Source: Marchantia polymorpha subsp. ruderalis
Taxonomy: Eukaryota > Streptophyta > Marchantiopsida > Marchantiales > Marchantiaceae
Direction: 5' to 3'
NCBI GenBank assembly: GCA_037833965.1
Contig: AP031358.1
Span: 8,502,001-8,566,000 of the forward strand
DNA: 64,000 nucleotides
Shown: one piece after another, positions 10,849 to 61,531 of the stretch
How the letters are laid out: every line of letters starts with the position of its first letter
How positions within the stretch are numbered: the stretch's first letter is position 1
Program-made: the position numbers and the translations under genes
The notes under the pieces: model-generated
The model's database searches: none
What the model saw: the letters and a program-made list of their open reading frames with translations, nothing else
Told to the model about the DNA's origin: nothing

Positions 10849-10872
10849 TAACACCCTCAAGCTCTTGGATTG

Positions 10873-11613: not shown

Positions 11614-11622
11614 GTGAATGCT

Positions 11623-12180
11623 CTCTCAAAAAGCTCAGACCTCCAAGACACGTTAACTTCTTGCTCCGAATGGTGTTCGGCCTGAAATTTTGCAGGCTCG
11701 TGCGGCCTGCCCTACTTCAGCGTTCCACCAAATTTCAGCTCCAGATCACTCCCAACGTAGAAGATACAGCTCCCGTAAGAATCTCTTGCCCTCAAATCTT
11801 GAAACTTAAAGCTCGAAACTCAAAATTGGACGCACTCTGACTCTGAAACTCCGTTCGATCTGAAAATTAACAGTCTTGAGCGGTGTACCCAACGCCACAA
11901 CGCCACAAAATTTCAGCTGCCGTTCACACTCGAGCCCAAAGTTACGGCCCTTGCAAGATTCGGCCCTCCCCTCTCAAAAAGCTCAGACCTCCAAGACACG
12001 TCAACTTCTCGCTCCGAATGGCGTTCGGCCTGAAATTTTGCAGGCTCGTGCGTCCTGCCCTACTCCAGCGTTCCACTAAATTTCAGCTCCAGATCACTCT
12101 TAACGTAGAAATACAGCTCCCGTAAGAATCTCTTGCTCTCAAATCTTGAAACTCAAAGCTCAAAACTCGAGCCGTCAAAG
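11623..12180 (-). repeat. Tandem 5' monomers of the LINE (348-bp period)
   Basis: The stretch beginning CTCAAAAAGCTCAGACCTCC at 11625 recurs at 11973, a period of 348 bp. Similarity covers about 200 bases in both copies, including GCCTGAAATTTTGCAGGCTC and CAAATCTTGAAAC. In LINE orientation there is a 5'-truncated monomer (about 12180-11971) followed by one full monomer (11970-11623) that ends ten bases before the ORF1 ATG. This architecture matches promoter monomers known from mouse L1 5' UTRs, where the outermost unit is usually truncated. Promoter activity here is inference. Confidence 0.85.
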
Positions 12181-27882: not shown

Positions 27883-30800
27883 CTACGGGGAGGAGGCAGC
27901 CTCCGAGGAAGTGCTGGAGGTCTTGATCGACTCCAGCACCTGCACGACCTCGGCCATGGTGGGGCGCTTGGAGGGCGTCTGGGAGGTGCAGATGAGGCCG
28001 AGCTTGAGCGCCTGCATGATCTCGCTCTCGGGCACGGCGTCGAGCCGGGGATCGACGCAGCTGCTCACGTTGCCCTGCTCGAGCGAGCTGCGGACGAACT
28101 CGCCCAGCACAATCACGCTGTTCTCGAAGCTCTCGACGGGCTGCCGGCCCGTCACCAGCTCCAGCAGCACCATGCCGAAGCTGTACACGTCGCACTTCTC
28201 GGTGAGCCGCAGGCTCTGGCAGGCGAGCTCGGGCGCAACGTAGCCCAGCGTCGTGTGGAACTTGCGGCTCGAGATGTACGTGTCCAGCATCGGCAGCAGC
28301 TTGACGAAGCCATAGTCCGAGACGCGCGGCTCGAATTCGGCGTCGAGCAAAATGTTGGACACCTTGAGGTCGAAGTGGAACACGGGCGGCCGGCAGTCGT
28401 GGTGCAGGTACGCCAGCCCCTTGGCCGTGCCCAGCGCAATGTTGAAGCGCAGCGCCCAGCTGAGGCTCGTGACGGCGCCGCTGCTCTGGTGCAGGTGGCT
28501 GTACAAGCTCCCGTTGGCCACGAAATCCGACAGGAGCAGCTGCATGGCCGACGACCAGTAGTAGCCTTGCAGCGGCACCAGGTTCGGGTGCTTGAGATTG
28601 CCCAGCAGCCCCATCTCCTGCTCGAAGTCGTCCTGATTCTTGATGCGCCCGAGCGTCTCGAGCTTCTTCACGGCGATCGACAGCCCACCCTCGAATGTGG
28701 CCTTGTACACCGAGCCCAGCGTGCCGCGCCCGATCATGCACTCGCGGTCCAGCAGCGCTTTGGTGCCCGTCTTCCAATCCTCGTAGCGCGACGGCAGGTC
28801 CTTGCTGAAGAGCACGAGCTTGCCCACAATCGGGCTCACGTCGGGCGACGGCGGCGAGCTCTCGTACACCAGCACGTCGCCCTCGCGCCGCTTGCGGATG
28901 GCCCGCACATTCATGATGGTCACCGCCACCACTCCCAGCGCGATGAAGGCCGCCGCGGCGATGGCGATGATCGACGACGAGCTCAGCAGCCGCGTCCCGC
29001 GGCTCCCCGCGCTGCCCGTGGCGCCCGAGCCAGCGCCAGCGCCATCGCCATCGCCCTCCGGCGCCAGCGCCCGGCAGGGCGCGCCCAGCGGCGCCCCGCA
29101 GAGCAGCGGATTGCCCAGGAACGAGCTCATGTTGAAGCGCCCCAGCGCTCCGTTGCGCGGAATCGGCCCCGACAGGTGGTTGAACGAGGCGTTCAGGAAG
29201 CGCAGCGCCTCCAATGCGCCCAGCGTCGCGGGGATGGCGCCCTCGAGCGAATTGTTGGACAGGTCCAGGCTGCGCAGCTTGGTCAGGTTGCCGAGCTCCG
29301 CCGCGATGCTGCCGCCCAAATCGTTCACCGCCAGGTTCAGCACCTCGAGGTCGGCCAGCGCGCTCATGCGCTCCGGGATCTGCCCCGTCAGCTCGTTGTC
29401 GGATACGTCCCTGCGCAGCAGCCACAGCCAGCCAGCCAGCACTCTTAGAATAGAAATGTGGGTCGGGGGATATGGCGGGACGAGGGGATCGCGGACTCTG
29501 CCCCGAGCCCGCCACAGCAGCAGCAGCATTTCCATCAAGATGCAGAGTCGCTACGAGAGGAGGAGAGTGGCGAGAGTGCTTACAGCAGCGAGAGCGAGGT
29601 GCAATCCGTGACCGCATCCGGCAACGATCCCTCGAGGTGCATGCTGTGAAGATCGAGCACCTGCAGGTGCGAGAGCAACCCAATCTCCGGGGGGATGGGG
29701 CCCGAGATGGCGTTGCCTTGGAGATGCAGGGCCGTGAGCGCTGCGAGCAGCCCGAGCTCCGGGGGCATGGCGCCGGTCAGAGCGTTGAAGCTGAGGTCCA
29801 GAGTTTGCATTCCCGCCAGAGCGCTCAGGGATGCGGGTATGGCGGACACCAGGGCGTTGGACGAGAGATTCAGAGCGCGCAGCTGCGAGCATTGGCTGAG
29901 ATCCGGGGGGATCACGCCCGTGAAATTGTTGTCGGACAGGTCCAGGGCTCGGAGCGCGGTGCAATTTCGGCCACCAGGAGCCGGCATCGATCCGGAGAAG
30001 CTGTTGCTCGACAGATTCACCGCCTGCGCGACGGGCAGGAACACCAAATCTGAGCCGACGCTCCCCGACAGGAAATTGTCGTGCAATGACAGAGTGACGA
30101 GGTTGGTCAATGCGGACAGCTGCGGAGGCAGATCCTCCGAGAGCGAGTTGGCCCCGAGATTCAGGTACGTCAGGGCCGTGCAGTTGCCCAGCGCTGCGGG
30201 AATTCTCCCGGACAGGAAATTCTGCTCCAGGTTCAAGATGAACAAAGTCGGCAGCTGGCCGAGCTCGGCGGGAATGGAGCCCTGCAAGTTGTTGTGCGAG
30301 AAATCGATGCCCTCCAGGTTGGCGCAATTGGCCAGGCTCGAGGGGATGGCGCCGGTGAAGCGGTTCTGGGCCAGCGAGATGTAGCGCAGCCTCTGGCAGT
30401 TGGAGAAGAGCTCGGCCGGAAGCGAGCCCGAGAGCGCATTGCCCGACAGATCAAACAGGCGCATGCCGCCAATTCGCCCGAGCTGGCCGGGAATGGGGCC
30501 CGACAGGGCGTTGCCGCTGAGGTTGAGCTTGTAGAGCGTGCTGATCTCGGCGAACTGCGGCGGAATGGTGCCCTGCAGATTGTTGTGCGTGAGCGAGATG
30601 GTCCTCAGGCGGGCCAGGTGCTGCAAGCTCGTGGCGAGCGAGCCCGCCAGCCCCGCGTCGTTCAGAATGAGCCTCGACACTCGGCCGTCCGCATCGCAGG
30701 TCACTCCCGTCCAATTGCACGGCGTCGAGTCCATGGTGTTCCAGTCGTCAAAAATGCCCTTCGGATCCTCGGTGATCGCATACCTGAAGCCGTAGAGCGC

Positions 30801-30929
30801 AATCCCCTCAGCATTGACGAACGCCTCGACCCGTGCGCTCTGCAATGCCACCACGCCCAGCAGAAGTATTGTGATCCTCCCCCACTGGCTGCCCCAAATC
30901 TGTCTCCTATGTCGTAGCCCACCTGTCAT
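27883..30929 (-). CDS. LRR receptor-like kinase, At1g12460/At1g62950 type
   Basis: Two exons, 30929-29584 and 29410-27883, joined across a 173-bp GT-AG intron. The junction restores an LRR ([16 protein letters not shown]) and gives 957 aa. Order: signal peptide (1-36), LRR N-cap with CNWTGVTCD, about 17-19 LRRs (to about residue 535), linker, membrane helix (about 593-616, [20 protein letters not shown]), basic stop-transfer, kinase domain (about 660-950). Kinase motifs: [12 protein letters not shown] (676-681 loop), Lys in IAVKKLE (697), HFD instead of HRD (794-796), DYG instead of DFG (814-816), [20 protein letters not shown] and GYYWSS are typical of this subfamily. It acts at the plasma membrane; ligand unknown. 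Arabidopsis members read HLN at the catalytic loop from memory, so this copy, with Asp retained, may be more active. No RD arginine, so activation-loop control should be non-RD. Confidence 0.92.
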
Positions 30930-33900
30930 GTTCTTTCACCGACCTCCTCCGTCCACGCGAGGGAGGGGCTCTGAGAATTTTATTCGCCCTGTCCTCGTCC
31001 TCTGCTGCTGCTTCCGCGTCCTCGTTGATGCAGGATTGAACCGGCGCTCTTCAGACCCATATCTTCATGAAATCCCCACGAGAGCCACTTCCTCTGCTAC
31101 ATTGCTATTCTTCGTACGACGCACGGAGACGACGAGAGCTGCACAGACGACGACGATAAGGCAGCGACATGGTCATAATCAGATCACATCGTTTCTGGCC
31201 AAGCAATGATCAGACTGTACTCGACGGCAGCAACAACAACAGGCGAGTGCCAGCAGGGGAAGGACTGAATCTCAGAGGGATGGCGGAGCTGACGAGGACA
31301 GACGGATTCGTACGGGGGAGGAGATTTCAGAACAAGCGCAGACGAGAAGAACTCGCTAATTTCATCCTACCCCAGGTGCGGAAATGCATGAGGCCCCGAG
31401 TAGTTCTTACGAGCGAAAGGAGATTGTGTCGACCTGAGGAGCCAAAGTGCTTATTCCGTTGCTGGCGAGCGAGCGGGCTATGTCCTCGCATTTCTCTTGC
31501 TCAAAGTGGGAACTAATCCGCGCGGATAAAAATTACACATCCAGGCCCCCGCTCCTGTGCAGCAGCAGCAGCAGCAGAACATGGCGATAGCAACGGTGTT
31601 CTCATTAAGACGACGAGATGCCGGGACGACGGCCACAACATTGTCCCGCGCATGCGTGGCAAATGCAGCTCGAGCTTGCCGCAACCTCTCAATGCACCGG
31701 GACGCACGACTATCACAGATTGACCGCTTACGGAAGCAGATCACGGCACCGACTAACTAATCTAATCCACACTGGCCCCCCTCCCCTGCCCGGCCGCCCC
31801 CGCCCGTCCGTCCCGAGGCTCGCATGCTCGTCCGTCCTTTTCCCACCCAATTCCTGCGTCCCCAGACTCTCTCTGCCTGCCTCCCTCCCTCTCTGCGTGC
31901 CTGCCTCGTGGTCCGGGTGACAGTCTGCCCTGCGTTCTGCGTTCGGGTGTGCGCGAGCGAGCGAGCGAGCGAGTTAGTGAGTGAGTGTGTCAGTCAGTCA
32001 ATCCTCCCCTCCCTCACTTCTGCTGCTGCTGCTCCTCCTCCTCCTCCTGCTCCTGCTCACCAGATGCTGCCTGCAGGGCCGCGCGCGCTGACCTTCAAAC
32101 GGCGTTGTTGTCGGCACCAGGCGCGTGCATAATACGACAATGCAATCCTCGCGCCGCCCGCGCCAGCATCGATCGATCGACCAGCGAGCGCAACGATCAT
32201 CTCGCCCTCGCCCTCGCTTTCTCTCGCAGCGTGCTCTTGGTCGTCGGCGGCATCGGGCGGATGGACAGATGCCGATGCCTCGACTGAACGCTGCACGAGA
32301 CAATGCCCACCGAACTGCGCCAATCCCACGAGGTTCAACCACACCACAACTCAACGACCGCAAGGCACACAGTGAATGCGGCAGCAGCTGCTCTAGCTCT
32401 AGCTCTAGCTCTTGTCCTGCTAATCGATCTCACTCACTCACTCCCCAGAAAACAGCGACGGGCCAGGAAGCAAGGGAGCAATTGCAAGGAGGAGGAGCAG
32501 CAGCTGGCTGCTGGGCTGCTGCTGCTGCTGCATCTGCCTGTAGCAATTTAAAACTGGAAATCGGGGCAATAATGAATCATGACTATATCTCAACTTTGGA
32601 AGGCGCAAGAGGAGGGGGACATGGCTCCACCATTCTGCAGTTCATTTCTTCATAAACTCCATTTGGCACCGCAAACGCCTCCCCACCCCACCACCGCAAT
32701 ATTTTACTACTTGTGGGCCTCGGGTCTGGTGAAAAGGCTCGCGGCTCTTGCGCATGTGGGGGGTCTGCAGGATTCGATCACTCGCGCCGGGACTCTCCGA
32801 ATGTTTTCGCCTATTCAATGTGCCCATTTGAATGTCAGCCTCGGAATCGCATTCCCCTTTCGCTTTCTCATTTCGTTACGAGTTGGATAAAGTCCGCCAG
32901 GTCGTGGAGATGGAGCCGCAGCTTCTGGCGGGTGAATGAATGAATGTTCAGATGTTACGCATGGATGCATCATGCATGCTTGTCTGCTCCTCCTGCTCCT
33001 CCTGCTCGAGTAGAAGTAGTCAGGAGTTCACTTCACTCCACTGGCATCTCTTTATCTTCCGCCTTCACTTCCTTATCCCCTTTGGCCTGGCGACCATGGC
33101 CCCCTTCATAACTCTCTTGTGAGTGATCAGATTAGAAAAGAAACTTTTGGAAAACCCTCGCCCCTCCAGCTCACCTCTGGGCTTGTACATCCTACATGAT
33201 TGATTATCTTCAGTGCATGCATGAGCTCCGAGGAGGATGGCAGGGCAGGGCATGGAATGGCATGGTATGGCATGCGATCGGATTGGACTGGGAACGTCGG
33301 AGATTGCCACTCTTACAAGCTGCAGAAATCTGGTGCACCAAAGAGGCGTGACAAAGAATTCGAAATTCAATAGCCATCCCGGTGTCACTCGTAATCATTG
33401 AGGTGTAATGATGACTTGCTGGTGATGCACCAGGAGAATTTGGAAAGCATTATTATGAGCTTACTCTCATCATTATGCATACCTGGATCATGCTTAGGAC
33501 CTAAGACGAGAGCAGGTTCTGGGTAATTGTTAATTTAAGCTCGAGCATCGCGCATGATCACGCGACTAACCTCATTCAGCTCGCCCGGTCACCACACTTA
33601 CCGGCATGAAAACATGCTTTTCCACCATTAATTCATCGATCTTCTGCTAAGTACGCAGATTAGACGCTGGATTGTAATTTATCTCCATTCATCGTTTTGC
33701 CTGTTCCATGGCTATGAAATGTTGGCCCCTAGTCGGACAGTGTAGTGTAGCTTTCCATGCAGGGCAAATTTTGGCCTTCATGTGTAGCATCAAAGCCCGA
33801 ACGAAGCACCTCCATAGGCTTCGGCCAATAGGTTAAATAACAATCTAGTCGAAGCTCCTGCGCATGCATAGGCTTCTAGTCGTTGAGAAAATTCTCTTGG

Positions 33901-37700: not shown

Positions 37701-39660
37701 TGTTTTTGCACACTAATAAATACAGATTACGATTTTTTAGGTGGCAATGATAACAATAATAAAATTCCATAATTACTCAATTTTACCGTATGAGATTGCA
37801 GACAATACTAATTTTTATTTGAATATACTATATTGACATTAAGGTTGATTATAATTTTTCAGATAACATTATATATTATGTAATGTGTGTATAGTATTTT
37901 CTTAAGTTGAATAATATTTTAATTATTTACAATTGATTAAAATTACATTCTATCTGACTTACATTTTTTCATAAATTCATGTTTTTTTAATAATTAAGAT
38001 TTCATCAAAAATATATTTATTGGATAAGTAATTAAAGTTATCATTGCATCAACATGAATCAAATATTGCCTCCATCAAAGATAATAATGTGGTCATTGTA
38101 CAAAAGATTAAAATCAGCAAATATGTTGTATTTTTAATATATAGAGTTGTATAAAACACATTATTGTTACTTATCAATTGTACAAAATTGTTGGCGCATT
38201 CAATGCAAGTGATAAGTCGCATAATAGATTAAAAAGTAAAACAAAAGATGAAGGATTTTGCCCCAAAGATGTAATTATTTGGATAAGATTGAATAATTAT
38301 AAATATTTTTTATGTTGGTAAACATATATTGAAATAGATCAAGTTTTTAATATCATTTTTATATAGCAGATAAAAGAAATCTTAAATTGTAAATTATTGT
38401 AAATAAATAAATTATGAAGACAAATATGAAGTTTGACTATGACTTTTCTCTCTTATATTCAATGTATAAAATCATATAATTGTAAGGATAAATTACAATC
38501 TTATCAAAGTTGACATTTGTTAGCATCATAGTTGAAACAGGTAAAAGTGAAAGACTGAGGAATGGGACCCGTTACAAGCATCTCCCTTTTAATAAGGTCG
38601 CCTTGTCTAGATGTGTATCTTACGTATGAAAGATTGGATCTGCATGCGGATGTTCGTGTTTGACAAAGTACAAAGCAACTCGCTACAAATTATTGATCTT
38701 GACAAAAATCATTTTATCTTATACGTATCCGAGACGCTTCAGATTGAGAAAGAATCATATGAATTTATCTAGCTCCTCGTCATGATTGTACCCCCTCTCA
38801 CTGTTTGGAGCGTGAAGACAGTAAACAATTTGTAGTGACATTCGATATATCTCCATCTTTCCTACATGAATCACGTAGCTTGTCGTCGTGACGGCTCCCA
38901 CTCTCAAGTTGTAAATTATCATTGTTGTTGTCACAAGAGGTAGAATATTGAACACTCGATAGCATCGATCATGCAAGTTTCTTTCCAAGGATGTTTGGGC
39001 ATGATACACAAGCAAAGGAGGATTGGATTGCTGTACTCTACCAACAACTCTCACAACATGCACCGCTTCCACACTCTCGCATTTTGTCCCTTCACTTTCG
39101 CACGAGTCATAATAATTCAAACTCATTGACATGGGTGGCAAGCCCGTCATGGGTCATCGATTGACGCCCTCACCAAAGCTCGCAAGGGCACCCCGAAGCA
39201 TGGCTTCATAAAAAGAACTGCTAAAAAGAAATTCTTATTTGACGAGAAAAGGTGACATCTTTCTATCAGTCATTTGTAAGAAGATAGGCAAAATAATTAC
39301 ACGAAATACAACAAGATAACTTCGGCCTCTTTCTAGATGGAAGCGATTAGAAAAAGTTGCAGGTCTGATGAATGTGCATGTGAAGCTAATGAGATTTATC
39401 ACTTGACGAAATTCAGCCAAACTTAATTTGATCATAAGTGCTACATGAGTCAAATTAAATTTCACTATAAACGAAACATGATTTTTGTTTGAACGAGTCA
39501 ACTATGATGAGACTTTAGTTGAAATACAGTTGATTATGAATGATACATGACGCTAATTTTTGTTGTTGATGAACAAGTCAAATGTGATATGATTTTAATT
39601 AAAATACAATGTGATGACGGATGAACATGAATCGATGAACATGTTATGTATAAAAAGAAC
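34701..39660. other. Gene-empty AT-rich block
   Basis: About 35.1-38.5 kb is extremely AT-rich, with no ORF over 60 codons; an ATAT tract lies near 35770 and a GTTAGTTAGCTAG-type simple repeat at about 37105-37140. The ORF of 137 codons at 34734-35147 shows no family motif. 38.5-39.66 kb is mixed; the minus-strand ORF at 39150-38755 is not recognised. 39400-39640 has diverged direct repeats around GAACGAGTCAA/GAACAAGTCAA. The block may be old transposon or organelle-like debris, but no diagnostic sequence is left. Confidence 0.5.
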
Positions 39661-39674
39661 GAAACTAGTAAAAT

Positions 39675-42121
39675 ATGATTTTCAATAGAGCCAAGAACAG
39701 CGGGAGGCCAGAAACCGGGAAAGAGGACCGGCAAAACCCACGGCGACCGACAGAAGGCAGACAGGGAATTACGGAGAGGAATGGGCGGATGCGACGGCCG
39801 TTGACTAGGCTACGGGCGCGTGTGGCTGCGCAAGAGCAGCCGGGGCGCGCATGCAAACTGCGAGCGGGATGGGATGATGGATCGTCGGGACCCATCGATC
39901 GGATTCCGTTCCCTGTTTTCGCTTCGTCTTCGGTGAGCAGGACGTGCCGCCGGCGAGCCTTTCTCGTCCATAGCTCCTGCCGTATTCTCCCTTTTGTGGA
40001 CAGCACGGCGGCAGCAGCAGGCGCTCCTTTCGCTCCTTCTTGCCTTCAGGTGCGCGATCTGACGGGCCCTTGCATTGCGTCGAGCAGCAGTTTTTGGGAT
40101 TTGGGGAGTCAGAGTGGAGACAGTCTGCCATTCTGTGGGCGAGAGGTTTCCGTGGGCTTATCTCCATAAACCCCAGCTTTTGCCGCCGGTCCTCCTCCCG
40201 TCGGGTGACGCGCAGGAATTTCTTGCTCAGGGTTTTTGGAATAATTTCGGTCCCGCTGGATTCTTCACGTCGTGGAAAAGATTCTTAGAGCTGCGATCTC
40301 CTTTCTCCATGCCCATCGATCCTTTCGAGCTCGAGCGTCATGGTTACAGGTATGTGCTCATTCTTGCCCTGATATAATTTTGGATTATCTTCGCAACTGC
40401 TCTGGAAGCTCTCCGAAGATTCGGATGACAGACGAGCTCTGTGCGTCTATCATCTAACTCCGAGAAAGCACGAAATGCTGATTTTGAGTTCGCAGTTCTC
40501 TAAAAGAACATACTCGAGTCATGTAAATTCGCCAATGTGAACATTTAGTTCGAGGTCCAATATCATATAGTTGCCTTTTTCCAAAGACCATCATATCCTC
40601 CTACTCTACGCTCTCTGTTCTTTGCATTTTTTTTCAACGTTATCAAGGTATTCCTTTTTTCTTTCTCTTTGAGTATTCAGAGATTCCAAGCTGTTAGACC
40701 CAGTTTACTAGGGCCTGAGATAAGTACCAATGGAAATAATAAATAAAAGGAAATAAAAGGGACGTGTTATCCTCATGTATCTCAAAATTCTCAATTGTGC
40801 AAATGGTCATTGCCATACAAGTGTATTCTCGAAGACGAAGTGGTTCAGTTGAAATGAACTTTATTCTCTGTAAGTGCTGAGCCTGACTGGCGCAAGGTGT
40901 GGATGATGCACCTTGGATTAGATGCCTTGCCTCATAGGGTTGTGCATATTGTCAACTACTTAGTCCGTTGGGTGTTAACAGTTTTCCTCTCCCTTTTCAA
41001 AAGGGATTCAGGAGAGACGCAGACAGCCTGGAGTCCTTCCGCATGTTTTACACGAGGCCTGGTATTCTTCTTACTTTCCGCTGGAGATAGAGCTTGATTC
41101 ATTAGAGTGTTTTTTCAATCTTTGATTCAAATGTTTCAGATGAGGCAGCTGGGCTTTGCTTTTGAGTATTCTGTTCACTTAATCTTCTCTTTTCTTTCTC
41201 TGCATCATACGAAGGGCAGAAAGATGCAAGCACAAGTGCATGGAGACGGCTCAAAGCGTGAATAAGGAGAGTGGTGAATAACACTAATTTCCTGGAGGTA
41301 AGCAGGCTTCTTGTAGAGTTGTTGAGTAATAACACGTTTGTTTTTTGTGTAACATATTGAAAGTCTCGTACCGGAACTGGTGCCTTGGAAATTATAATTC
41401 GAGATGAAGGTGACGACCTTCATCTTCACCCATCCACTATTCAAGGGAAGTCTATAAAATTTTGCAGCTTGTAACGGCCATCCTTTCTTCCCGGCATCGA
41501 TATAATAAAAAAATGCACTTTCTATCCATCATCTCCTTTTTTGTTTCAGACGTATGCATTGTGCTCTGATAGAAGGATCATTGGCCTTATGCCACTCTTA
41601 CTGAAGGCTCTTGTTGATCTCACTTGTGACCCTTGTTCCTGTAATTCGCGTTGGCATTCTCCTTTTCTGTGTATGATGCTAAGCTTTGCAGTGTTGGGTG
41701 AAGATTTAATTCAGGATCCGGTCCGTGCTGGATAAAGTTTTGAAAAATCGTTATTTCGTGCATTTTAGCTGTTTGACAGGAAGGCGAATTAGCATACTCT
41801 GCTGAGGTCCACTTTCCAGTTATCCCTGTTTCCTTTTCAAGATGACCGGTATGGAACTGCTTGGTGGCTCTTTTTGTGTGGGCTATTATCTCCTCGACGC
41901 CTGTTTTGCATCCTGTCTCAATTGTATTACCATGAGCTTTCGAATTACGAGATGGGGTGGGTATAGGTCAGTAGTGGCGGGGTTCTTGTTCTCGAAGAAG
42001 ACGGGATAAAGGTGCCTAAACTTGTGAGCGGAATCTATGGAAGTTTGAGCTCGTTTCGATTACATGCCACATTGCAGGCTTCGAATGTTGCGAAGGGCAA
42101 TCTCCTCCAGATTCTTCTGTT
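39675..42121 (+). promoter_or_regulatory. Candidate promoter and spliced 5' leader of the Myb/SANT gene
   Basis: Composition jumps from AT-rich to GC-rich at about 39.7 kb. A candidate leader exon ends at ACAG/GTATGT (40349/40350). A good acceptor (ACATTGCAG) at 42077 lies 44 bases before the Myb/SANT ATG. This predicts a 1.73 kb leader intron. A 14-codon open stretch starting ATGCCCATCGATCC at 40308 runs into the donor and may form an upstream ORF. The splice model is by eye; other acceptors (about 41550) are possible. Confidence 0.4.
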
Positions 42122-43036
42122 ATGGCTTTAGTGCCGGCCCAATCGAATGCAAACAAGGGAAAGGAGAAAAGAATAAGGGCGGAAAATTGGACCTGGGAGG
42201 AAACGGTGCGTCTAGTTGAAGCCAAAAAGCGAGAATGGGAGGAGAAAGAAAACGGCAGTTTGCTCAAATTTACCAGCACTACGGATAAGTGGACTAAGGT
42301 GCAGGAATATATGAAAGAGAGCTCCTTATTCCGAGCAAGGTCTGTGGAACAAATAAGACAGAAGTGGGAGGCTCTTTATAACAGTTGGAAGAAGATCAAG
42401 GTCAGCAATAGTGAAGCTGGGTCGGGTGAGTATTGGATGATGTCCAAAGAAGAGAAGAATGAAAAAAGGTTGCCAACTTCATTCGATAGAAGGCTGTGGG
42501 ACATGCTAAACTCTTTTCTGGGTCAGAAAAATGTGAACCGCAATAGTAAGTGCTTCGATACCATGTGTGAGGGAGCACCTTCAGCTAATCCTCACGACGT
42601 CCACAAATCGTACGTCGACCCCTTAGTTGAGGAGTTGATTGATGCAAACGGAACAGCAGTTAGTGATGATGTCAGTACGAATCCAGCAGAGAGAGGAGAT
42701 TATGGTCTGAGGCCTGGGAGAAGACCCTTTGGAGAAGGAGATCTTCTGAGAGGAAATATGGGCAAAAGGAGGAAGAGTAGAGGACCTGATGCTTTTTTAG
42801 AGCTATTAAAGGAGTCAAATAAGTCGATTGTAGAAGCACTGACTGTACAAAGAGACGACAAAAGGGAAGAGCTTAAACTTGTGCTTGCCCTGGAGGAACG
42901 GAAATTACAAATAGAAGAGCGAAAGCTTGAGTTGGAGACTAGGGATAGGGAGAGCATGTGTAGAGATAGAGAGAAAATTGCGAACGCGATGTGTTCAATT
43001 ATAGAGGTTCTTGATAAGCTAGCCAACAAGATTTAA
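42122..43036 (+). CDS. Trihelix/Myb-SANT-like DNA-binding protein (Harbinger ORF1 / ALP2-like)
   Basis: Intact single-exon ORF of 304 aa. Residues about 22-110 form a trihelix (MADF/Myb-SANT-like) domain with spaced Trp: NWTWEETVRLVEAKKREW, DKWTKVQEYM and QIRQKWEALYNSWKKIK. The middle is low-complexity with a basic KRRKSRG patch, a possible nuclear signal. Residues about 230-300 are a charged coiled coil (LALEERKLQIEERKLEL, ending IIEVLDKLANKI). PIF/Harbinger elements encode such a protein beside the transposase, and it carries the transposase to DNA. In Arabidopsis the domesticated version, ALP2, links ALP1 to the Polycomb complex PRC2. A transposase-like ORF lies 1.5 kb downstream on the same strand. 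Whether this is a live element gene, a domesticated gene or an ordinary trihelix factor cannot be settled from the sequence. Confidence 0.75.
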   Translation: MALVPAQSNANKGKEKRIRAENWTWEETVRLVEAKKREWEEKENGSLLKFTSTTDKWTKVQEYMKESSLFRARSVEQIRQKWEALYNSWKKIKVSNSEAGSGEYWMMSKEEKNEKRLPTSFDRRLWDMLNSFLGQKNVNRNSKCFDTMCEGAPSANPHDVHKSYVDPLVEELIDANGTAVSDDVSTNPAERGDYGLRPGRRPFGEGDLLRGNMGKRRKSRGPDAFLELLKESNKSIVEALTVQRDDKREELKLVLALEERKLQIEERKLELETRDRESMCRDREKIANAMCSIIEVLDKLANKI

Positions 43037-44513
43037 TTTGTCAGGCTATAACAATTTTGATGCAAAGTAACGTTGTGAATCAATGTCACCACTTTTTGGA
43101 GCGCAATACGGCCTTGGGGAGTGAACGCTGTACCTTCACGTTTTTTGGCCGAAAGACTTGAATCGATTACAGGAATGAGTTTTACTTTTGTTTACTGTTT
43201 TCCCTGTAAAAGTTGGATCTTTGGTTTTCAGTCTCTAGTATGGGGTTTTTTCTGCTCATTCCTTCCTTGTAGTTGGTGTACTTGCCGATTCTAGTTATTT
43301 ACGCTCTTACAAGTTCGTATTTTTGACCTTGTAAACCTCTATTGGACTTCATGGTTTTGAGGGTTCGAGCAACCGTTTGTTTTAGAGGTAAAGGTTTTGT
43401 TTTGGTCCGTTTATTCCCATCTCCATAAATGCAGCCTGTTATGCTCAATGTTCTAGCAGTTCGTAGGGTAATGACATGTGTTAACCCGTAGCTAAGCTCT
43501 TCATAGCTACAGGTCGAATTCGCTTTGTTAAGTAGACGAATTTATGCATAGGAAGTCCCGTGCAGGGACGGCTGTTCTGTCCACAGAGCGGTGGAGTCTA
43601 CACAGTGCTTATCAGCCACCATAGTAAGTTGTGCAACTTTTATTAGTCTTTGGACTTCTCAGCTCAAAGACACCTTGCTTTATTATGTAAACCGAATGCT
43701 GTTGAAAATATAACATCCTTACTTTCAAGGTTTTCAGAGATGACGCTTGTGATATCTAATCATTTATCATTTGTTGTTCCCATTTCGTGCATCAGTACTT
43801 GTTTCGTGAGAGGTTTCTTGAAGATATTGGTGAATTCACATTCAAGTTGTCCTACTTTCGAAGAGGAAGCGGATAAATATATGTATTTTGAATCGGTGTT
43901 TCAGATCGCTATGCTTTTGCTTCAGTAACCAAGGTAGTGTAGTTTCTTCATTCTGGAACTCGAATTCTGCTGATGTCAGTCTGAACTGGATCCTTAACGT
44001 ATGGTTTGTTGATTTCTATGTTTTATGTTCTGCGCTCTGGACCAGAACGCACGTAGTTAGTCCAAGATTGCTTTACTTTGTGTTTACGGACCTTGTCCTC
44101 TTCATTCATTTTTGTCACTTCTTCGTCACGCTTCTTAATAATAACTTACCCGTGTTTTCCTTATCAATCTGCTTCAAGTTTGTGTCCGCTATCACATCGC
44201 TTTTTGAGCTGCATCTCTTCGGCCATTTTTTGATTTCTGTGTGTCTGTTAAATATATATAGTTGCACAAAAGCATGTATACTTGCTCTCTGTCTCAGTCA
44301 TGTTTTCATTTGCTTGGTCATTACCGGATGAAGCGTAACATAATTTGTGCTTGTAAAATCCCATCCTGAGTCGGACAATTATGGAGAATTTACAGTTACT
44401 TCGCACTTACTTGCACTTTCTGAACTGTACAACCCTATAAACAACGTAATAAACAGCTAGAGAAGATACCTGATCAGGCTGTGCATTCTGTTGACAAGAC
44501 TGATTGGTGAGAG
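43037..44513. other. Spacer between the Myb/SANT and transposase-like ORFs
   Basis: T-rich DNA, probably 3' UTR of the upstream gene and promoter or intron of the next. The ORFs at 43650-43928 and 43888-44331 are T-rich, Phe/Leu-rich and unrecognised. It ends in TTGTGCAG/GTTATGGCAG (acceptor at 44528), which suggests that the following coding exon is entered by splicing. Confidence 0.45.
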
Positions 44514-46109
44514 ATGCTGCTTGTGCAGGTTATGGCAGAACCCGACCTAGAGATGCGGGATCTAGAATGCAGTCCAGATTCCATGGCTGAGCCCTATGAC
44601 GAAAGTCAAGTGCAGCAGCTGCTCCGTCTAACCGATTCTCTTATAGAACAAGGGCAAGCGCTGGATGGTGAGATTGATGCAATTTATCCTGCTGATGTAG
44701 ATGTACGGCCGGCATCCGATGACCTGAAGAGAAGGTTCATGGTCCTTGTGCTTCAAGTCGTTTTCATTTTGCAACAAGCACTCCAATTATTTCCAGAATT
44801 ATTTGAGGGCAACAGAATGCAGCATAGCAGAAGCACCCCACTTTCTTTGCAATCGCTGCGCGATTTTGAACTTCGCATCGATGATTACATGCTCAAGTTT
44901 TTCCAGATGAACAGACAAACCTGTCTAGCCTATGCCAAGTTCATGCAACTTGAAGAGGGAACCTGGGTGAGACCTAAAAGTCGATATTATTTCTACAGGT
45001 TTTTCCTAGAACTCTATGACAATGGCAAATGGCAGGAAATTATGAAGATGTCGCAGCAGACATTCTTTTGGCTATGTGGCAAGATGGCTCCTCATATCAG
45101 GAAGAATGACACAAACTACAGAGAAGCGATTCCCGTTCCTTGTAGACTGGCAGCGTGCGTGTACAAGTTAGTCACGGGTTGTCGATCAGCGGAGATTATG
45201 GGCAAGTTTGGGATCGGGAGGAGTACTCTATACAGTATTTTGAGGCAGGTCATACCTGGAATCATTGAGGTTTTGGCACAGTACATTGAATGGCCGAGAG
45301 GGCAAGCTTTTCGTGCAACGACCATGGGGATACAGGAGGTTTGTGGATTTCCAAACTGTGCCGGTGTGGTTGGAGGATGCGACATTCCTATTGTGGCACC
45401 TTCGGAGGATCCGTGGGCTTACATGAATGCCAACCAGGAGTACAGCGTTGTCTTGCAGGTAGTTTGTAATCACGAAAGGAAATTCACATCTGTGTATGTA
45501 GGACAGGCAGGTTCTATGGATTTCTCTGGAGTGCTGAGATCGTCCAGTCTGTTCGAAAAGATCAGCCGTGGTGCGTTACTCACTGAGGATCCGACCACGC
45601 CATCCCCCTGCTCCATAGAGGTGAAGCCTTATCTCCTGGGAGACGCAGGATATCCCTGTCTGAACTGGCTTATGACACCTTACAAGCTTAGTTCAGGAGG
45701 GGGAGAAAGTCTCGGGCCGATGCAGTCCAGGTACAACGAGATGTTACTTAAAGGGAAAGAATTGGTTGACCAGAGCTTTGCAGTCTTGAAGAGTACATTT
45801 CGAGAGCTGGCTACCCCATGCCTTTTAGATATCGAACTAGTCCCACAGGTGATCGGGGCTTGCTGTGTGCTTCATAACATTCTCGTAACGAGGAAAGATG
45901 TTCAGCTCGATAGCCATAGCCATGCGGAATTTAAAACTCAGCAGAGTGCGCACAGATTACAAGGAGTTGGGGACCTGGAAGCCGAGTTTCCGGAAGGCTT
46001 CCAAGACTCAGAAGAAGCACTAGCAAAACGAGATACTTTGGCTCTCTACCTTGCAAACCTTCCAGATGGATCAGGCAGAGTTGATTCTTCTACGACGAAT
46101 GACTCGTGA
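44514..46109 (+). CDS. PIF/Harbinger transposase-derived protein, HARBI1/ALP1-like
   Basis: Intact ORF of 531 aa; a splice acceptor at 44528 favours the second ATG at 44532 (525 aa). The N-terminal 150 residues are acidic and unassigned. An HTH-like block (CRSAEIMGKFGIGRSTLYSI, about 223-245) precedes the DDE_4 nuclease fold: GGCDIPIVAPSEDPW (Asp 290), VGQAGSMDFSGVLRSS (Asp 336), YLLGDAGYPCLNWLMTPY, and ELVDQSFAVLKSTFRELATP, where the usual catalytic Glu is Asp 419; then VIGACCVLHNIL. In active Harbinger transposases the triad is D-D-E; ALP1 of Arabidopsis has lost it and works as an accessory PRC2 subunit. D-D-D here makes transposase activity doubtful. Undamaged despite its length, next to an intact Myb/SANT partner. 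Terminal inverted repeats were not found. Best guess: domesticated or recently active. Confidence 0.8.
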   Translation: MLLVQVMAEPDLEMRDLECSPDSMAEPYDESQVQQLLRLTDSLIEQGQALDGEIDAIYPADVDVRPASDDLKRRFMVLVLQVVFILQQALQLFPELFEGNRMQHSRSTPLSLQSLRDFELRIDDYMLKFFQMNRQTCLAYAKFMQLEEGTWVRPKSRYYFYRFFLELYDNGKWQEIMKMSQQTFFWLCGKMAPHIRKNDTNYREAIPVPCRLAACVYKLVTGCRSAEIMGKFGIGRSTLYSILRQVIPGIIEVLAQYIEWPRGQAFRATTMGIQEVCGFPNCAGVVGGCDIPIVAPSEDPWAYMNANQEYSVVLQVVCNHERKFTSVYVGQAGSMDFSGVLRSSSLFEKISRGALLTEDPTTPSPCSIEVKPYLLGDAGYPCLNWLMTPYKLSSGGGESLGPMQSRYNEMLLKGKELVDQSFAVLKSTFRELATPCLLDIELVPQVIGACCVLHNILVTRKDVQLDSHSHAEFKTQQSAHRLQGVGDLEAEFPEGFQDSEEALAKRDTLALYLANLPDGSGRVDSSTTNDS

Positions 46110-48656
46110 AGAGGTTTCTCGATGATTTAACCCATTTGACGTCTTCGACGCAAATTCAAATGTATCAAATCAACTTCAACGTGGTTGGATGGATGTAACC
46201 CGATTTCAGCAGAGGACCTCACTTTCATTGATCTTGCGAGGTAATTGTCTCGTCTCGTCTCCTCGTATTGCTGTTTGCCGATTGCCGATGGATCTGTACA
46301 ACCACTTATCTTGTGCGTGGCGCAGTGAAGGACCCACCACTGTAAGAAGCCAAGCCGGAGCGAGACTACATAGCATCACTCTTGGCTCAAGTGTATGGAT
46401 GAAGATTTTGTCCGAGTTGTGGCGTTTTCACTTGGAATTCTTCTTCTGATTAGAGCATTCCGACAAGACTGCAATCAGACAAAAGAAACGGAGACTTGTA
46501 TGGCGCAGGGTGGTGGAGAACAACTGGCTCTTGCGAAATCTTGTCTCAACGCCCCGTCACTCCTTCGGAAATAGGAGTCTGTCTCGGCTCGGACTCGGAG
46601 GTAACACGAAAATGAGCCACGCAAATAATGTTTAAACCCTCGATAGGCCTTTCAGTCTAAAGCTCGCCTTTGGAATTTTAGAAAGCTGAGTGTCTATCAT
46701 TCTAATCAGTAATCGAAAGGTTTGCATCAGGTACGCCTTTTACTTCACTCGTAGGCTTCGAATTTTCAGATCACAAGTTCATCCGAGTCCCAGGTGGACC
46801 TCTGACACGAGAATTAGCGTGCACCGATCGGCCAAAGGCGAAGCGTGGGAAAAAAATCTAGAATTAACTTCTTAAGTATGCAGCGTGGAGAATGGAAGTT
46901 TATTTAGATGCACGTGGAGATACATCTGAACACATGCCTCGAATTTTCTTCACATCTCCGATACGCCTCCGTCTGCTAAGGAAATCCATGGTGCTCGAAG
47001 CACTTCCTTCGTTAGAGTCTTAGACTTTTGTCAGGCATGTGCTCCCATCTACAGGCTTGACGTTGACGCATTTGTGGGACTGTAGGTTATATTCGAATGC
47101 GTATTGTACAGTAGCTCTGATGATATGTCGTTCAATTTCTCTGTAATTCATTTTTCACGGGAATTTGGGCCCGGAGAAGTGGCTACAGATAGTGGCTATA
47201 TGGATCTGTATTGATCGTCACCGTGTGAAATCACTTAACTTTGCTTCTTCTCCAACTAGTCGTGGCTTAGATCATACATAAGGGACTGCTTAGATCATAC
47301 ATAAGGGATTGCAGCTTACTCATTTGAATCATGAAATTCGATCTCACGCTAGTATATTATCTAATTCATCCAGCTGAGCTCACAGTCTTCAGATCTGTTG
47401 TAGGGCAAGATGGGCAGCGGGAAGTCCACCACATGGCTTCTGATAGCGATCGTAGGCATCACAGATGTGCAGCTCCGTCGAAGCCTCTTCCGCATACGAT
47501 GACCCGTAAGTGCTACGAATACAACGATGCGCACACCAAAAAGAACAACCCAGACGTCCATGACAAGGACGAGGAACATGATCACGAAGACGACCGCAGA
47601 GAAAAAGACGGCATGCCGATAGAGATGCTAGCGACCGTGACGAAGATAGTCAACATGCTGATGACAAAGGTGGAAAGAGGAAGGAAAATAAAGGTCTTTA
47701 CTGTCAGCGGAAGTGGTACAAAGGACGCAAACTAAGCTTAATACACTTGGGAAATAAGCTTTGGTAAGGACATAACATTGTACTGAGTTATCAATTATAT
47801 AAAAAAATGCTTCGTGATTAATCATATCTCATTTTCTTGCTCAGAGTTCTGTGGCAAAGATTACTGTCGAGTGCTTTGTGTTGTTCACACCATAGCTGAA
47901 ATCCATTCTCCCATAAAACCAAATTTTCCTGAATATTTGTTCAATATCGTCTCGATTCCTGGACATCAACACCCGTGTAGGTAACTTTTACACACAACTT
48001 GGAATTCTTATCTGCAAATATAGTCGCTAAAGCTATATCGATATGGTCTAATTGGTCTAATCATGCCATGCTGCTTTGAAATGGGTGTATAGTGGAGTAG
48101 CAGAGAGTGAGTTACCAACAGCAGTACATATGTACAATTCTTTAGCTCCAAGTGATGTCATGCAACACCTGATAGATGTCCCTAGAGGCAATCAGGTCTG
48201 AATTTGAAATCTGGATCCTTTAACCTTTTGACATTCACCTTTTCTTTAAAATAATTATTATTCCTTGCAGGTTTCCAATCGTTCAGAATCGTTCAGACTG
48301 ATGACGATATTGCGTTATGGAAAGTCACACCTACCTTCAAACTACCACCTAAAGCTGATTCCGGTGTAACCTCAGCAAAAGTTCAGGTTACACCATCTTT
48401 CGGACGCATGATGATAGTGAGCCGGGCGTTTCAGGAATCAATCTCCAAGTAACGGGGCGAGGGAGTCGAAGGCGTAACGATCTGGGCACTGTCTCGGAGA
48501 GAGACTCGGTGAAATAGACATGTCTGTGAAGATGCGGACTACCTGCACCTGGACAGAAAGAAAACTTTCCATTACAGTTTGTCTAACTTTAAATTTTTGT
48601 TTTTAATCAATCATATGTATATACTAAAAGCAGCTGAGCTACATCAGTATTCGAGG
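46110..48656. other. Gene-free stretch upstream of the plastid DNA insert
   Basis: The first few hundred bases are probably the 3' UTR of the transposase-like gene. ORFs up to 134 codons (47331-47735, Lys/Asp/His-rich) show no recognisable family. A 23-bp tandem duplication (GCTTAGATCATACATAAGGG) lies at 47265-47310. No inverted repeat matching the 39-42 kb side was recognised. Confidence 0.45.
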
Positions 48657-48928
48657 TTCAAACGAAAAAGGGCTTACGGTGGATACCTAGGCACCCAGAG
48701 ACGAGGAAGGGCGTAGCAAGCGACGAAATGCTTCGGGGAGCTGAAAATAAGTATAGATCCGGAGATTCCCGAATAGGTTAACCTTTGAAACTGCTGCTGA
48801 ATTCATAGGCAGACAAGAGACAACCTGGCGAACTGAAACATCTTAGTAGCCAGAGGAAAAGAAAGCAAAAGCGATTCTCGTAGTAGCGGCAAGCGAAATG
48901 GGAACAGCCTAAACCGTGAAAACGGGGT
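48657..48928 (+). pseudogene. Truncated plastid 23S rRNA gene, 5' end (NUPT)
   Basis: Starts TTCAAACGAAAAAGGGCTTA and continues with GGTGGATACCTAGGCACCCA, GAGACGAGGAAGGGCGTAGC, CGAAATGCTTCGGGGAGCTG, CAACCTGGCGAACTGAAACA and AGTAGCCAGAGGAAAAGAAA. These are landmarks of the first 270 bases of plastid 23S rRNA, in order and almost unchanged. The match stops abruptly after AACGGGGT, where the mature gene would go on for about 2.5 kb. It is a nuclear insertion of plastid DNA, not a functional gene. A few differences from the usual plastid sequence (for example GAAAAAGGG near the start) suggest some age. Confidence 0.9.
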
Positions 48929-49980
48929 GACTTTCTAAACACCCTAAAATATTTATTTTTGCATGAATAGCTAATGCATTTTTCAATTCCATTTTTATCA
49001 CTTTTTAAAAATTTGGAATTGAGTTCTTTAGAAAAAGCATATAAAGCTAGTAAACGTATACAAAAAATAAAGAAAGATTATTTTTTATATAAAAATATGC
49101 TTTTTTCGTCAATCTTGAACCTTTAATTCGTCATCTCGAGTACGCAAAAGACTCTCCCGCCGGTCTCGACCTTCGGACCTCGAAAATATCTTCAACCATG
49201 CAAAAAGCTTGGTGTTCTAGAAGCCTTTTCCAAAAGCAATCTTTTCTCTTTAGCCATTCAAGACTAACAAGATGCGCGGAAATTTCAGAATTGTGGTTCG
49301 GAGAAAACAGCAATCAATATTTTTTTTAGGCATCGTCTCTTAGACTTTATTGATTTATTTTACCATAGAGGCCTTGATAGACAATAACTCCCCCCCAAAC
49401 ACAGGTTACAACTTTCATCGTTCTGTGCTCTCCAAAGACCTACTTAACTCAAAAGGCGTCGAATTGAAGAATGATAGAACTTTTGTAATTTGAAAATATC
49501 TAACTACACAAGAATTAAAATTTTTTTTTTTTTTCCACCTGACTAAAACCTCAAAAAAATTTCTTAATTTTTTTTTAATCCGCGAATTCCTAAGTGAACA
49601 ATTAAATTTTTGTAACTAACAAAATTCGTTTTAAATAAATAAGCCAATAATTTAATTTTTTCTTTTTAACTAAATCATTAGAATTTTCTTTACTTTTTAC
49701 TAAAATTGGATCATCATAATTTAAATCCAATTTTTCATTTTTTTTATTAGCTAAATAATTTTTATTTTGAATATTATGCCAAGTTGCTCTGGCGGGTAAT
49801 TCAAGTTGATCAATAAATATATGGTTTAAAAGCAACATCTTTAGTCATTTTTTCAATATCCAATGATACAGATTGAAAAGTAAAATATGACATATTTGAT
49901 TCATTTGTTTTTTCTATTCCAAATTTTTTTTCTTTTTTTTCTTAATTAATTAAAGAGCGTTGATTTCACATATAGTTTAC
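48929..49980. other. AT-rich segment, possibly further organellar DNA
   Basis: Immediately after the 23S fragment the DNA is AT-rich and unlike the flanks. The plus strand at about 48985-49110 has a Lys-rich open frame ([20 protein letters not shown]) and the minus strand at 49838-49602 an ORF with LELPARATWHNIQNKNYLAN. Codon use of both is plastid-like, and large plastid ORFs such as ycf1 are a possible source, but no diagnostic motif could be confirmed. Mixed strands suggest more than one joined fragment. A minus-strand 60-codon ORF at 49313-49131 is unassigned. Confidence 0.35.
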
Positions 49981-58387: not shown

Positions 58388-61300
58388 ATGGCCGGCGCTT
58401 TGGGAGGACTGCGAGGGTTTTGGAGCTGGTATCAAGGGAGCTTGGCGAGGCAACCGGTCCGAACGCAGGTTGTTACTTCAGGGCTTCTGTGGGCAGTGGG
58501 CGATGTCATGGCTCAAACTATCGAGATTAAAACACAGCGGAGTCGACGGGAAAAATCCCCCGCAGTGCCGCATGCCGCCGCAACGCCCCCGCCGGTAGGT
58601 CATTTGTTCCTGTGGCATTCAAGCTCGTCACCATGTGGAATTTTCTTGATTTGCTGTCCTCCTCCTCGACTTTCCGTGCAGGGAGTTTTCTCGTCGTCAC
58701 TGACGTCGAGCGTAGGGTGATTCACGCCTAACAATTTGCTTGACCCGACCAATGAATGCATAGTCGTGTGAAGAGCATGTTTGAACACAATCATCTACCC
58801 AGATATCTATTTTTTCTCTGAAACTTTAGATTGTCAACAAGTACATGAATCTACGCACATTTCATCTAATTCCTGGCCGCAAACTGAGATGAAAGGCGGA
58901 GGGGGTCAGGAACCATCAAAACTTAAGAATACCTCACTCTACTCTTCGAATCCCGCTTGTATCGAATCGCCGGTGCTTGCAGGGGTTTCGGGTGCTGGAA
59001 CGACAGAATTGTGAAAGCTCTTTAGAACTCATGGCTTGAAGGAGCAATTGCAAGTATCGAATCTTCAGGGGTGGTCAGCAATAAACGCATGAGGTTCTGG
59101 TGGATAAAATCTGGAGCACCAGCAGCCAGCCAGCACTGCAAGCAATGAAGTCGTCATAGATCCACGGATTGTGCCCGAGGAAAGGCATCGACCGAATTTC
59201 TGTCTGCCTGCCATTCATTCTCAATGGCAGAGCACCATCATCGACCATTCCAATCTCCTGCTCGGCGGAGCAGACTCTCTCCGGTCTCACGGCCGAAGGA
59301 CGCTCCTCCGAACCCAACCTTTATCTCGGAGGCACGCTGCTAAGTAGCAGCGTGCGTGGCCGAGCGCGAGCTTTTAAATTTCAAACGATCGTGCGTGGCA
59401 GGATTTTTCTTGGAGCCTCCAACCTCCCGTCCTCGCACAATGGCGCGCCAACGTCTCTGGCTCGTCCGTTGGCTGGCGCCTCGGTCGAGTATTCGGCTGG
59501 GGGACTCCCTTGAGCCCGTGCCCTGTCTTCCCAGTTTGCTGCTGCCCGTCTGTATCTTCGTCGTTCTTTGTCAGGGGAGGGATGAGTCCTCGTCGGTCTG
59601 GAGTCCAGAGGTCGAGTTCGTTGCTGCTTGCCAGTGAAAGAATGCGTTTCTGAAGGAGATAACTTGTTTTTTCTGTTGGTCGAGATTTTACTTGATGGAG
59701 ATATTTTGTTTCTTCGTTGGAGGATGTTGGTTTGTACTTTGAGGAGTGGCGTCGGGGAAACTCTTTCGAAACCATGTCTTTGGTCAGAATGTTGCCCTCT
59801 TGAGAGCTGCTCAAAACGGAGTGCACGTGCAAGATCAGGGATGGTCATGGTTGCTCATGAATTATAGAGTTAAAGATGAGGTGCAACTGTTGGGTGTGAC
59901 TTTCAAGAATTGCACTATGTGCCATCATATCCCACTCAAGTTTGGTCCAAGTCATATATCTGCATGCTTGTGTGCAGGGTTGTGATTGCATTCTTGTGTG
60001 TGCCGATTACTCAGACCCTTATTGGTTCACTACGTCCCTGAACAATCCCTGTAGAGCATCTAAGCAGCTCTGTGCGTCGTTTATTTCGTCCAGACTTCAA
60101 AGCTCACGTTTAAATGAGACTTTCCTTTTTAACTAAATGGAGAGCAAGTTGGGGATCCAGATTGCAACTTGCATATTGTATGGTTTAGGGAACTAATTTC
60201 CTGTCAGTCATCTGGTCAATTGCAGCACCTGATTACTGATTTTGATCTTCACAGGCGTAGTCCGTAGCCCACAGACCCGCCAGATCTGCCAGGGGTTTAG
60301 GTCGAAAAAAATGGCCCACCTAGTGAAGAATGTAGTATTTCACATCAGCAAGTGTAGAACCCACCGTTCTCTTTCTCCGATTTTTCTCTATCTTCTTGTT
60401 CTCATTTTGTTTTTGTTTTTGGTTTATTTTTCAACCTTTACCCGAAGGATAATTCACATGTAGAGTCTCAAAGCTCAAACAAGCTTACTTACTAATCGCT
60501 GACTGGAAGTGTTGTGTGAGTAGATAGATTCAAAGATTTGAGAAAGAGGCCCTCTTTTGTTTCACATAATTGGATAATTATTCATGAGTATGTTCCTGTA
60601 TCGTGCAAGATTCATTTGGCGAACTCAAATGAACAGAACAAATCATGCTTCTCGAAGAGATCCTAATTTAATCTGATTATTCAGGAGGGAGATCTAGGAA
60701 CTATTACTACAAATCAAACCCTGAACCTCAGAAGGGTAGCCACCACCAGTCTCTTTGGATTTGGCTTCGTCGGACCGGTAGGGCATTTCTGGTAAGTCCA
60801 ATCTTCTGAATTCATGCATCAATTGAGTTCTCTTCCATAGAGTATAAGGAGCTTGCAGCTCCTTATATTATAATCGAATTATAATGGAGCTTGCAGCTCC
60901 TTATATTATAATCGAATTATAATGGAGCTTGCAGCTCCATTATAATTCGACATTCAGAAAAAAGTTTCGGAAAATATGCAGTGGAAGAGATCAAATTGTA
61001 CTGTCAGGTCTATTTCTTCTTTCGATTCCCGGACTTTTTTGAATTTGGTCCCCTGGCACCTCATAGTCATGTTCAGTACAATAATGGACTTGCTCCTCTA
61101 CATTCTAACACATGCAGTTGTTTCACAGGTATGAGGCCTTGGAGCACATCGTCAAAAGCAAGATGAGACTTGTTCCCAACTCTTTAGCATTTGTAGCTAC
61201 AAAAGTAGTTGTCGACACGCTGTTGTTTGGGCCTATACACCTGGTGACGTTTTTCACATACGCTGGGTTGGCTAGTGGTAAACCCTTCGAGCAGGTTAAG

Positions 61301-61531
61301 AAAGACCTGAAAAGAGACTTTGTACCCACATTCATGATTGAGGGTTCGACTTGGTTCTTTGTGCAGATAGCAAACTTCCGTTTTGTCCCTGTACAACATC
61401 AACTTTTGTTTGTAAACTTCTTTTGTATTCTAGACAGTGCATTCTTGTCGTGGGTTAAGCACCAAGAAGATGCTCCATGGAAACGTTATTTGACAGCACT
61501 TGGATCTTCAAAAAATGTAAAAGAGCAATGA
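58388..61531 (+). CDS. Mpv17/PMP22 family membrane protein (At3g24570-like)
   Basis: Exons 58388-58594, 60685-60791 and 61129-61531 (207+107+403 = 239 codons) encode 238 aa. Exon 1 has FWSWYQGSLARQPVRTQVVT and LLWAVGDVMAQ, the usual N-terminus. Exon 2 encodes RRVATTSLFGFGFVGPVGHF. A Trp codon is split across intron 2 (TG/G), giving GHFWYEALEHIV. Exon 3 has VDTLLFGPIHL, KPFEQVKKDLKRDFVPTFMI, then the signature region FVQIANFRFVPVQHQLLFVN and DSAFLSWVKHQ. Four membrane helices are expected. Family members sit in inner mitochondrial or peroxisomal membranes (yeast Sym1, mammalian Mpv17, PMP22) and may form channels; the substrate in plants is not known. Length is typical. Intron 1 is 2090 bp, intron 2 is 337 bp and holds a palindromic repeat. 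Confidence 0.92.
58595..60684 (+). other. Intron 1 of the Mpv17-like gene
   Basis: Bounded by CCG/GTAGGT and TTATTCAG/GAG, both in phase 0. Unusually long beside the other introns here. It contains GC-richer stretches (about 59.1-59.8 kb) with short ORFs on both strands, none recognised. No transposon ends were seen. Confidence 0.6.
60848..60955. repeat. Palindromic 38-bp tandem repeat inside Mpv17 intron 2
   Basis: Units start at 60848, 60886 and 60924. Each has a GC-richer palindrome GGAGCTTGCAGCTCC and an AT-rich palindromic spacer (TTATAATCGAATTATAA); the third unit is partial. Every unit is close to self-complementary, so the transcript could fold into several alternative hairpins. Confidence 0.9.

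Follow-up and report, generated by a model that had tools for sequence, protein, structure and literature searches.

Two reading frames and the active site of P2

The 64,000-nucleotide stretch of Marchantia polymorpha subsp. ruderalis DNA analysed here (the window, C9:8502001-8566000 in a searched genome of 241,466,482 bases and 9 contigs) contains two complete open reading frames (ORFs) on the forward strand: P1 (42122-43036, 304 amino acids), encoding a trihelix/Myb-SANT-like protein, and, 1.5 kb downstream of it, P2 (44514-46109, 531 amino acids), encoding a catalytically broken protein derived from a PIF/Harbinger transposase. A previous sequence-only reading of this DNA had described two uninterrupted ORFs of the same orientation, and the coordinates, strand and completeness that it gave all hold. 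The true start of P2 may be the ATG at 44538, which lies 3' of an acceptor-like TGTGCAG.

P2 belongs to the PIF/Harbinger transposase-derived proteins, as it matches the PF13359 (DDE_Tnp_4) profile with 82.6 bits (E 3e-23) and thereby passes the curated cut-off of 24.8. Its catalytic Asp-Asp-Glu (DDE) triad was read from an alignment of 12 Harbinger-type proteins, namely P2 and 11 ORFs picked by eye from 10 of 18 loci examined outside the window (such loci carry L-numbers; two of the ORFs come from L023), from which L029-L036 were excluded as their frames were mostly interrupted or fragmentary. Where the first catalytic Asp is expected, P2 has Gly287 (CAGVVGGCDIP; codon GGA, 45372-45374), the second triad column keeps Asp377 (LLGDAGYP; codon GAC, 45642-45644), and the column of the catalytic Glu holds Asp419 (ELVDQSF; codon GAC, 45768-45770). 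Gly287, Asp377 and Asp419 together leave P2 without the intact DDE triad of an active transposon. We presume these Asp columns to be the ones constituting the triad; in the GSMHD motif close by, Phe replaces the Asp in P2, and at least two triad positions are lost whichever Asp assignment is taken. The Asp for Glu at ELVDQSF had been seen from the letters alone and proved correct, but the extent of the loss had been understated, as the first Asp is gone too. Because the first Asp and the Glu are both absent, P2 should not cut DNA by normal DDE chemistry.

A sequence search for solved structures returned no relative of P2, a 9-row profile searched against solved structures gave just two matches (E 0.57 and 0.95), and a Foldseek structure search gave no match at E <= 0.001. 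Judged from its structural model, P2 would retain the RNase-H-like transposase fold.

Copies, ends and relatives of P2

Near-identical copies of either ORF, which the sequence-only reading had proposed to look for, were not found in the genome at the DNA level. A DNA search with 41500-46700, by a method that passes over very common words, gave 75 matches, the query itself and 74 others, and all 74 fell within query positions 1668-2508 (window 43167-44007); no further DNA-level match to the P1 or P2 ORF appeared genome-wide (40 of the 46 candidates scored). At the protein level, the P2 search returned 40 places, one of them P2 itself; the top others, ranked by E-value, share 34%, 31% and 35% identity with it. 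Synonymous divergence (dS) is saturated between P2 and either member of a pair of relatives, L023A and L023B, and likewise between the two.

The stretch that accounts for all 74 matches, 43167-44007, lies between the ORFs and is common to a dispersed repeat family. It is 95-97% identical to long repeat copies at L010, L011 and L012+L013, the last being read as one interrupted copy, and it occurs in shortened form at 35 further places, five of which were inspected (L014-L018). The shortened form has apparently lost an internal part, in a deletion marked by a TTG micro-repeat, and was then amplified. Since repeat similarity extends past both ends of the stretch and stops in the window, capture is likelier than insertion; most likely, though this is not proven, the repeat captured 43167-44007 from the P1/P2 locus, and the stretch therefore need not be an insertion separating P1 from P2.

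Terminal inverted repeats, which had not been recognised before, did not emerge from a search of 39000-48500 either. This region holds eight imperfect inverted repeats of at least 14 bases, one of which flanks both ORFs (41123-41142 / 47312-47331, 20 bases, 80%) and is without duplication. The left flank (39000-42121) shares with the right flank (46110-48500) 37, 9, 3 and 0 exact inverted matches at lengths of 9, 10, 11 and 12, as compared to 37.1, 9.64, 2.4 and 0.7 in 100 shuffles used as control, and a 3-base duplication at the outer edges was seen in none of the nine length-10 matches. Thus, no terminal inverted repeats bordered by a 3-bp duplication of the target stand out above chance around the pair, although strongly decayed ends could escape such a search.

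The PF13359 profile finds 48 places in the genome. They include one multicopy Harbinger family with several open frames of 471 amino acids and an intact triad, of which L020 and L028 were read; the triad is also intact in L021, L022 and L024, which lie outside this family. Overall, the triad is broken in 7 of the 12 aligned proteins and intact in 5, and in the tree P2 forms a group, supported at 98/98, with three more genes that are open and have a broken triad. Six further Harbinger-type genes are triad-broken (L019, L023A, L023B, L025, L026 and L027), and in each of them the frames or exon-like pieces examined are open. L023 (C3:15753000-15762500) is a tandem pair, in which L023A lost all three triad positions and L023B two. 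The set of Harbinger domesticates is therefore probably larger than the window gene alone.

Could P2 instead be a Harbinger copy that died recently and is still open by luck? In favour of this, several other Harbinger-type frames of the genome are open as well. However, P2 has no close DNA-level copy and no inverted repeats above chance; its sister genes are open yet triad-broken; and the joint chance of its state as a recently dead copy is at most 1.4e-3 under a rough model. We consider this explanation improbable. An old domestication is, by contrast, the probable origin of P2, because there is no other DNA-level copy, no inverted repeats exceed chance, two triad positions are lost, the frame is open, and P2 sits in a clade of open genes with broken triads. 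The sequence-only reading had gone further and proposed selection for a non-transposase role: the open frame, the triad loss and the clade support P2 as a domesticated gene, selection acting on it is something we infer, and the accompanying view of P1 as the second protein of a Harbinger pair fares less well, as detailed below.

The family of P1 and its linkage to P2

P1 matches PF13837 (Myb_DNA-bind_4) with 24.4 bits (E 3.9e-5), under the curated cut-off of 27. A profile built from 20 trihelix-type proteins of the genome gives it 105.4 bits, and one built from the two Myb-type proteins of the multicopy Harbinger family (hereafter transposon Mybs; these and P1 itself were excluded from the first profile) gives it 12.6 bits. 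In phmmer with P1, E-values run from 6.8e-23 to 5.7e-9 for the 20 relatives and are 2.6e-4 and 3.8e-4 for the transposon Mybs. Trp 23, 57 and 82 of P1 align with positions that are Trp in most of the 20. The protein search with P1 gave 24 places including itself, the best other being C4:21323364 (34% identity, 6.6e-19), and L064, L065 and L068, three of the six relatives seen in longer stretches, match P1 across both the domain and the C-terminal region. Searched by sequence against solved structures, P1 returned a single match (E 0.72). Thus, the proposed PIF/Harbinger protein pair holds for P2, which is of the Harbinger transposase type, but is not established for P1 as a Harbinger Myb; P1 is probably a gene for a trihelix/GT-type DNA-binding protein. 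Three points limit this assignment: the trihelix profile score is partly circular, because the 20 proteins were picked by their likeness to P1; in the tree, P1 forms a long branch without a resolved sister; and a grouping of P1 with the transposon Mybs is not rejected (p-AU 0.41).

That last result leads to the strongest competing explanation, in which P1 and P2 are both genes of one ancient Harbinger insertion, co-domesticated and still adjacent, independently of the ALP1/ALP2 and HDP1/HDP2 pairs of Arabidopsis, with P1 binding DNA and carrying the non-cutting P2 to its targets. The two ORFs are on the same strand, 1.5 kb apart and both intact, and P1 keeps three Trp, like the DNA-binding Harbinger Mybs and HDP2 (PMC7282668, in the part of the paper available). 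Furthermore, linked co-domestications exist in insects, according to the portion of PMC9710019 at hand. In the genome itself, a transposon Myb frame accompanies the Harbinger transposase at E <= 1.2e-8 in 8 of 10 loci (L020, L028-L036), the remaining two giving weak matches (L035, 0.0012; L034, 0.0073). In contrast, among frames of at least 40 amino acids in the 8.5-9.9 kb fetched at each of the eight loci L019 and L021-L027, neither profile detects one of Myb type at E <= 0.01, which argues against co-domestication as the origin of the pair. In addition, the side-by-side arrangement had been taken to preserve the ancestral element layout, a claim that is left unsupported because the Myb and transposase ORFs of the multicopy family lie on opposite strands and face each other in L020 and L028, which P1 and P2 do not.

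Whether Harbinger-type and Myb-type genes neighbour each other beyond chance was assessed by rotation, with 50 Harbinger-type places (48 PF13359 places, minus 5 second pieces, plus 7 from the P2 protein search) and 54 Myb_4 places (53 from the scan, plus P1); the distances were picked post hoc and the control ignores gene clustering, which limits all values that follow. At 5 kb there is one adjacency, with a chance of 0.0985, a value that does not favour common descent of the pair. At 10 kb, 4 of the 50 Harbinger-type places are near a Myb_4 place versus 0.22 expected, a count reached in 0 of 2000 rotations, and with the window pair removed 3 are left (P 0.004). Two of these cases, C2:10.95 and C5:24.25 Mb, contain internal stops; the case on C4 is L025, whose triad is broken and which has P1's best relative about 6 kb away. 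Here, at L045/L025 (C4:21321000-21335000), two trihelix-type genes stand in tandem, and the Harbinger gene some 6 kb from them shares their strand. By rotation, at least one of 23 P1-like places would come to lie within 10 kb of any of the six places with a broken triad (P2 excluded) with a chance of 0.0067, again for a comparison chosen post hoc.

A segmental duplication of the whole pair with the C4 locus is unlikely, as a tree constrained to group P2 with L025 has a p-AU of 0.040, and none of the 50 Harbinger-type places lies within 60 kb of L064, L065 or L068, the relatives that match P1 in domain and C-terminal region. Both points, together with the gap between 105.4 and 12.6 bits, speak against common descent from one insertion. 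The excess of trihelix-type genes near Harbinger-type places is a hint of ancestral linkage, not proof of it, and we hold the co-domesticated pair to be unlikely, albeit the best of the alternatives. Slightly less likely still is its fullest form, a third instance in plants of the two Harbinger proteins being domesticated together, here still linked, in which P1 with its Trp kept and P2 with its active site lost would make a site-specific, non-cutting chromatin recruiter.

The surroundings of P1 and P2 are those of ordinary plant genes, because the window also holds pieces of a leucine-rich repeat receptor kinase (27886-30935, minus strand) and an Mpv17/PMP22 exon (61109-61528, plus strand). 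Upstream of P1, a G+C-rich stretch on the plus strand (39751-40350; G+C 0.598 at 39751-40250) is followed just 3' by a donor-like CAG|GTATGT near 40351, and possibly represents the promoter and first exon of P1. The claim that all other transposon genes of the window are broken was checked in part: on the minus strand, a reverse-transcriptase (RVT_1) frame (8334-9770, within 7672-11625) and a DDE_1 transposase frame (17034-17645, within 16460-17645) both appear as pieces and look fragmentary. An Rfam scan of the window found a piece of 23S ribosomal RNA of the bacterial/plastid type (48700-48942, 159.5 bits), presumably plastid-derived, and nothing beyond it; this piece has 14 matches in the genome including itself, one of them 99% identical at C9:22646766-22647042 and the others shorter or more diverged.

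Interpretation and comparison with known systems

Taken together, we favour, with a probability of roughly 65%, that P2 is a host gene of old standing that descends from a PIF/Harbinger transposase, should no longer cut by DDE chemistry and is one of a small set of triad-broken, open genes, and that P1 is most likely of the trihelix/GT type. By analogy to HDP1, ALP1 and HARBI1, P2 would act as a non-cutting nuclear protein whose N-terminal region binds a Myb/SANT-like partner, and might thereby recruit factors of chromatin or transcription to DNA. For this partner, P1 is a candidate solely by its position and domain type, and a P1-P2 partnership is possible.

Harbinger transposases were repeatedly recruited as host genes, with chromatin roles in flowering plants (PMC4671723, PMC7282668) and co-domestications in insects (PMC9710019), as far as the available parts of these papers go. 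A triad-broken Harbinger set in a haploid and easily edited liverwort would let one ask whether such recruitment took place in bryophytes, and whether its products act on the Polycomb or acetylation machinery there. A limited literature search, which supports no claim of absence in print, found no account of Harbinger-derived host genes in Marchantia besides the ALP1 homologue of M. paleacea (PMC4671723, seen in part), and a look through the text of PMC9985172, on liverwort genomes, found Harbinger unmentioned.

The sequence-only reading had likened the two genes to an ALP2/ALP1 module, and as orthologues of the Arabidopsis proteins they would act with PRC2. The domain types do match, and ALP1 homologues are known in bryophytes including Marchantia paleacea (PMC4671723). 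Nevertheless, the likeness fails on published features, as given in the portions of the two papers at hand. Arabidopsis ALP1 is a domesticated Harbinger transposase and, like P2, triad-broken, but to DGA rather than to the G/D/D of P2, whereas the bryophyte homologues, with the M. paleacea sequence in the tree, retain DDE where P2 has lost two positions (PMC4671723). Furthermore, ALP1 genes are described as without a neighbouring Myb gene where genomic sequence existed (PMC4671723), in contrast to P2 with the Myb-type P1 1.5 kb upstream. The intact-triad L021, L022 and L024 would fit the description of bryophyte ALP1 better than P2 does. As for ALP2, reported from angiosperms, a conifer and a fern (PMC7282668), P1 resembles it in being Myb-type, about 300 amino acids long (334 in Arabidopsis ALP2) and predicted to form a coiled coil in its C-terminal part. 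However, land-plant ALP2 is described as lacking the three tryptophans and an adjacent nuclease gene (PMC7282668), while P1 carries Trp 23, 57 and 82, in columns that we infer to be equivalent, and adjoins P2. Orthology to ALP2/ALP1 is thus rejected on these published features, being the least probable of the explanations weighed here.

Other likenesses are found elsewhere. HDP1/HDP2, known from the Arabidopsis IDM complex, combine a triad-broken transposase derivative with a Trp-bearing Myb-type protein, as P2 and P1 do (PMC7282668, in part). The linked PIF co-domesticates of insects, for instance APLG1/APM1 and LPLG2/LPM2, likewise are adjacent genes of transposase-derived and MADF/Myb-type proteins devoid of terminal inverted repeats; in the part of PMC9710019 available they are supported by synteny and purifying selection across species. 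Finally, P1 differs from the plant trihelix (GT) factors in forming a long branch of its own, but shares with them the domain and the Trp columns common to 20 proteins of the genome.

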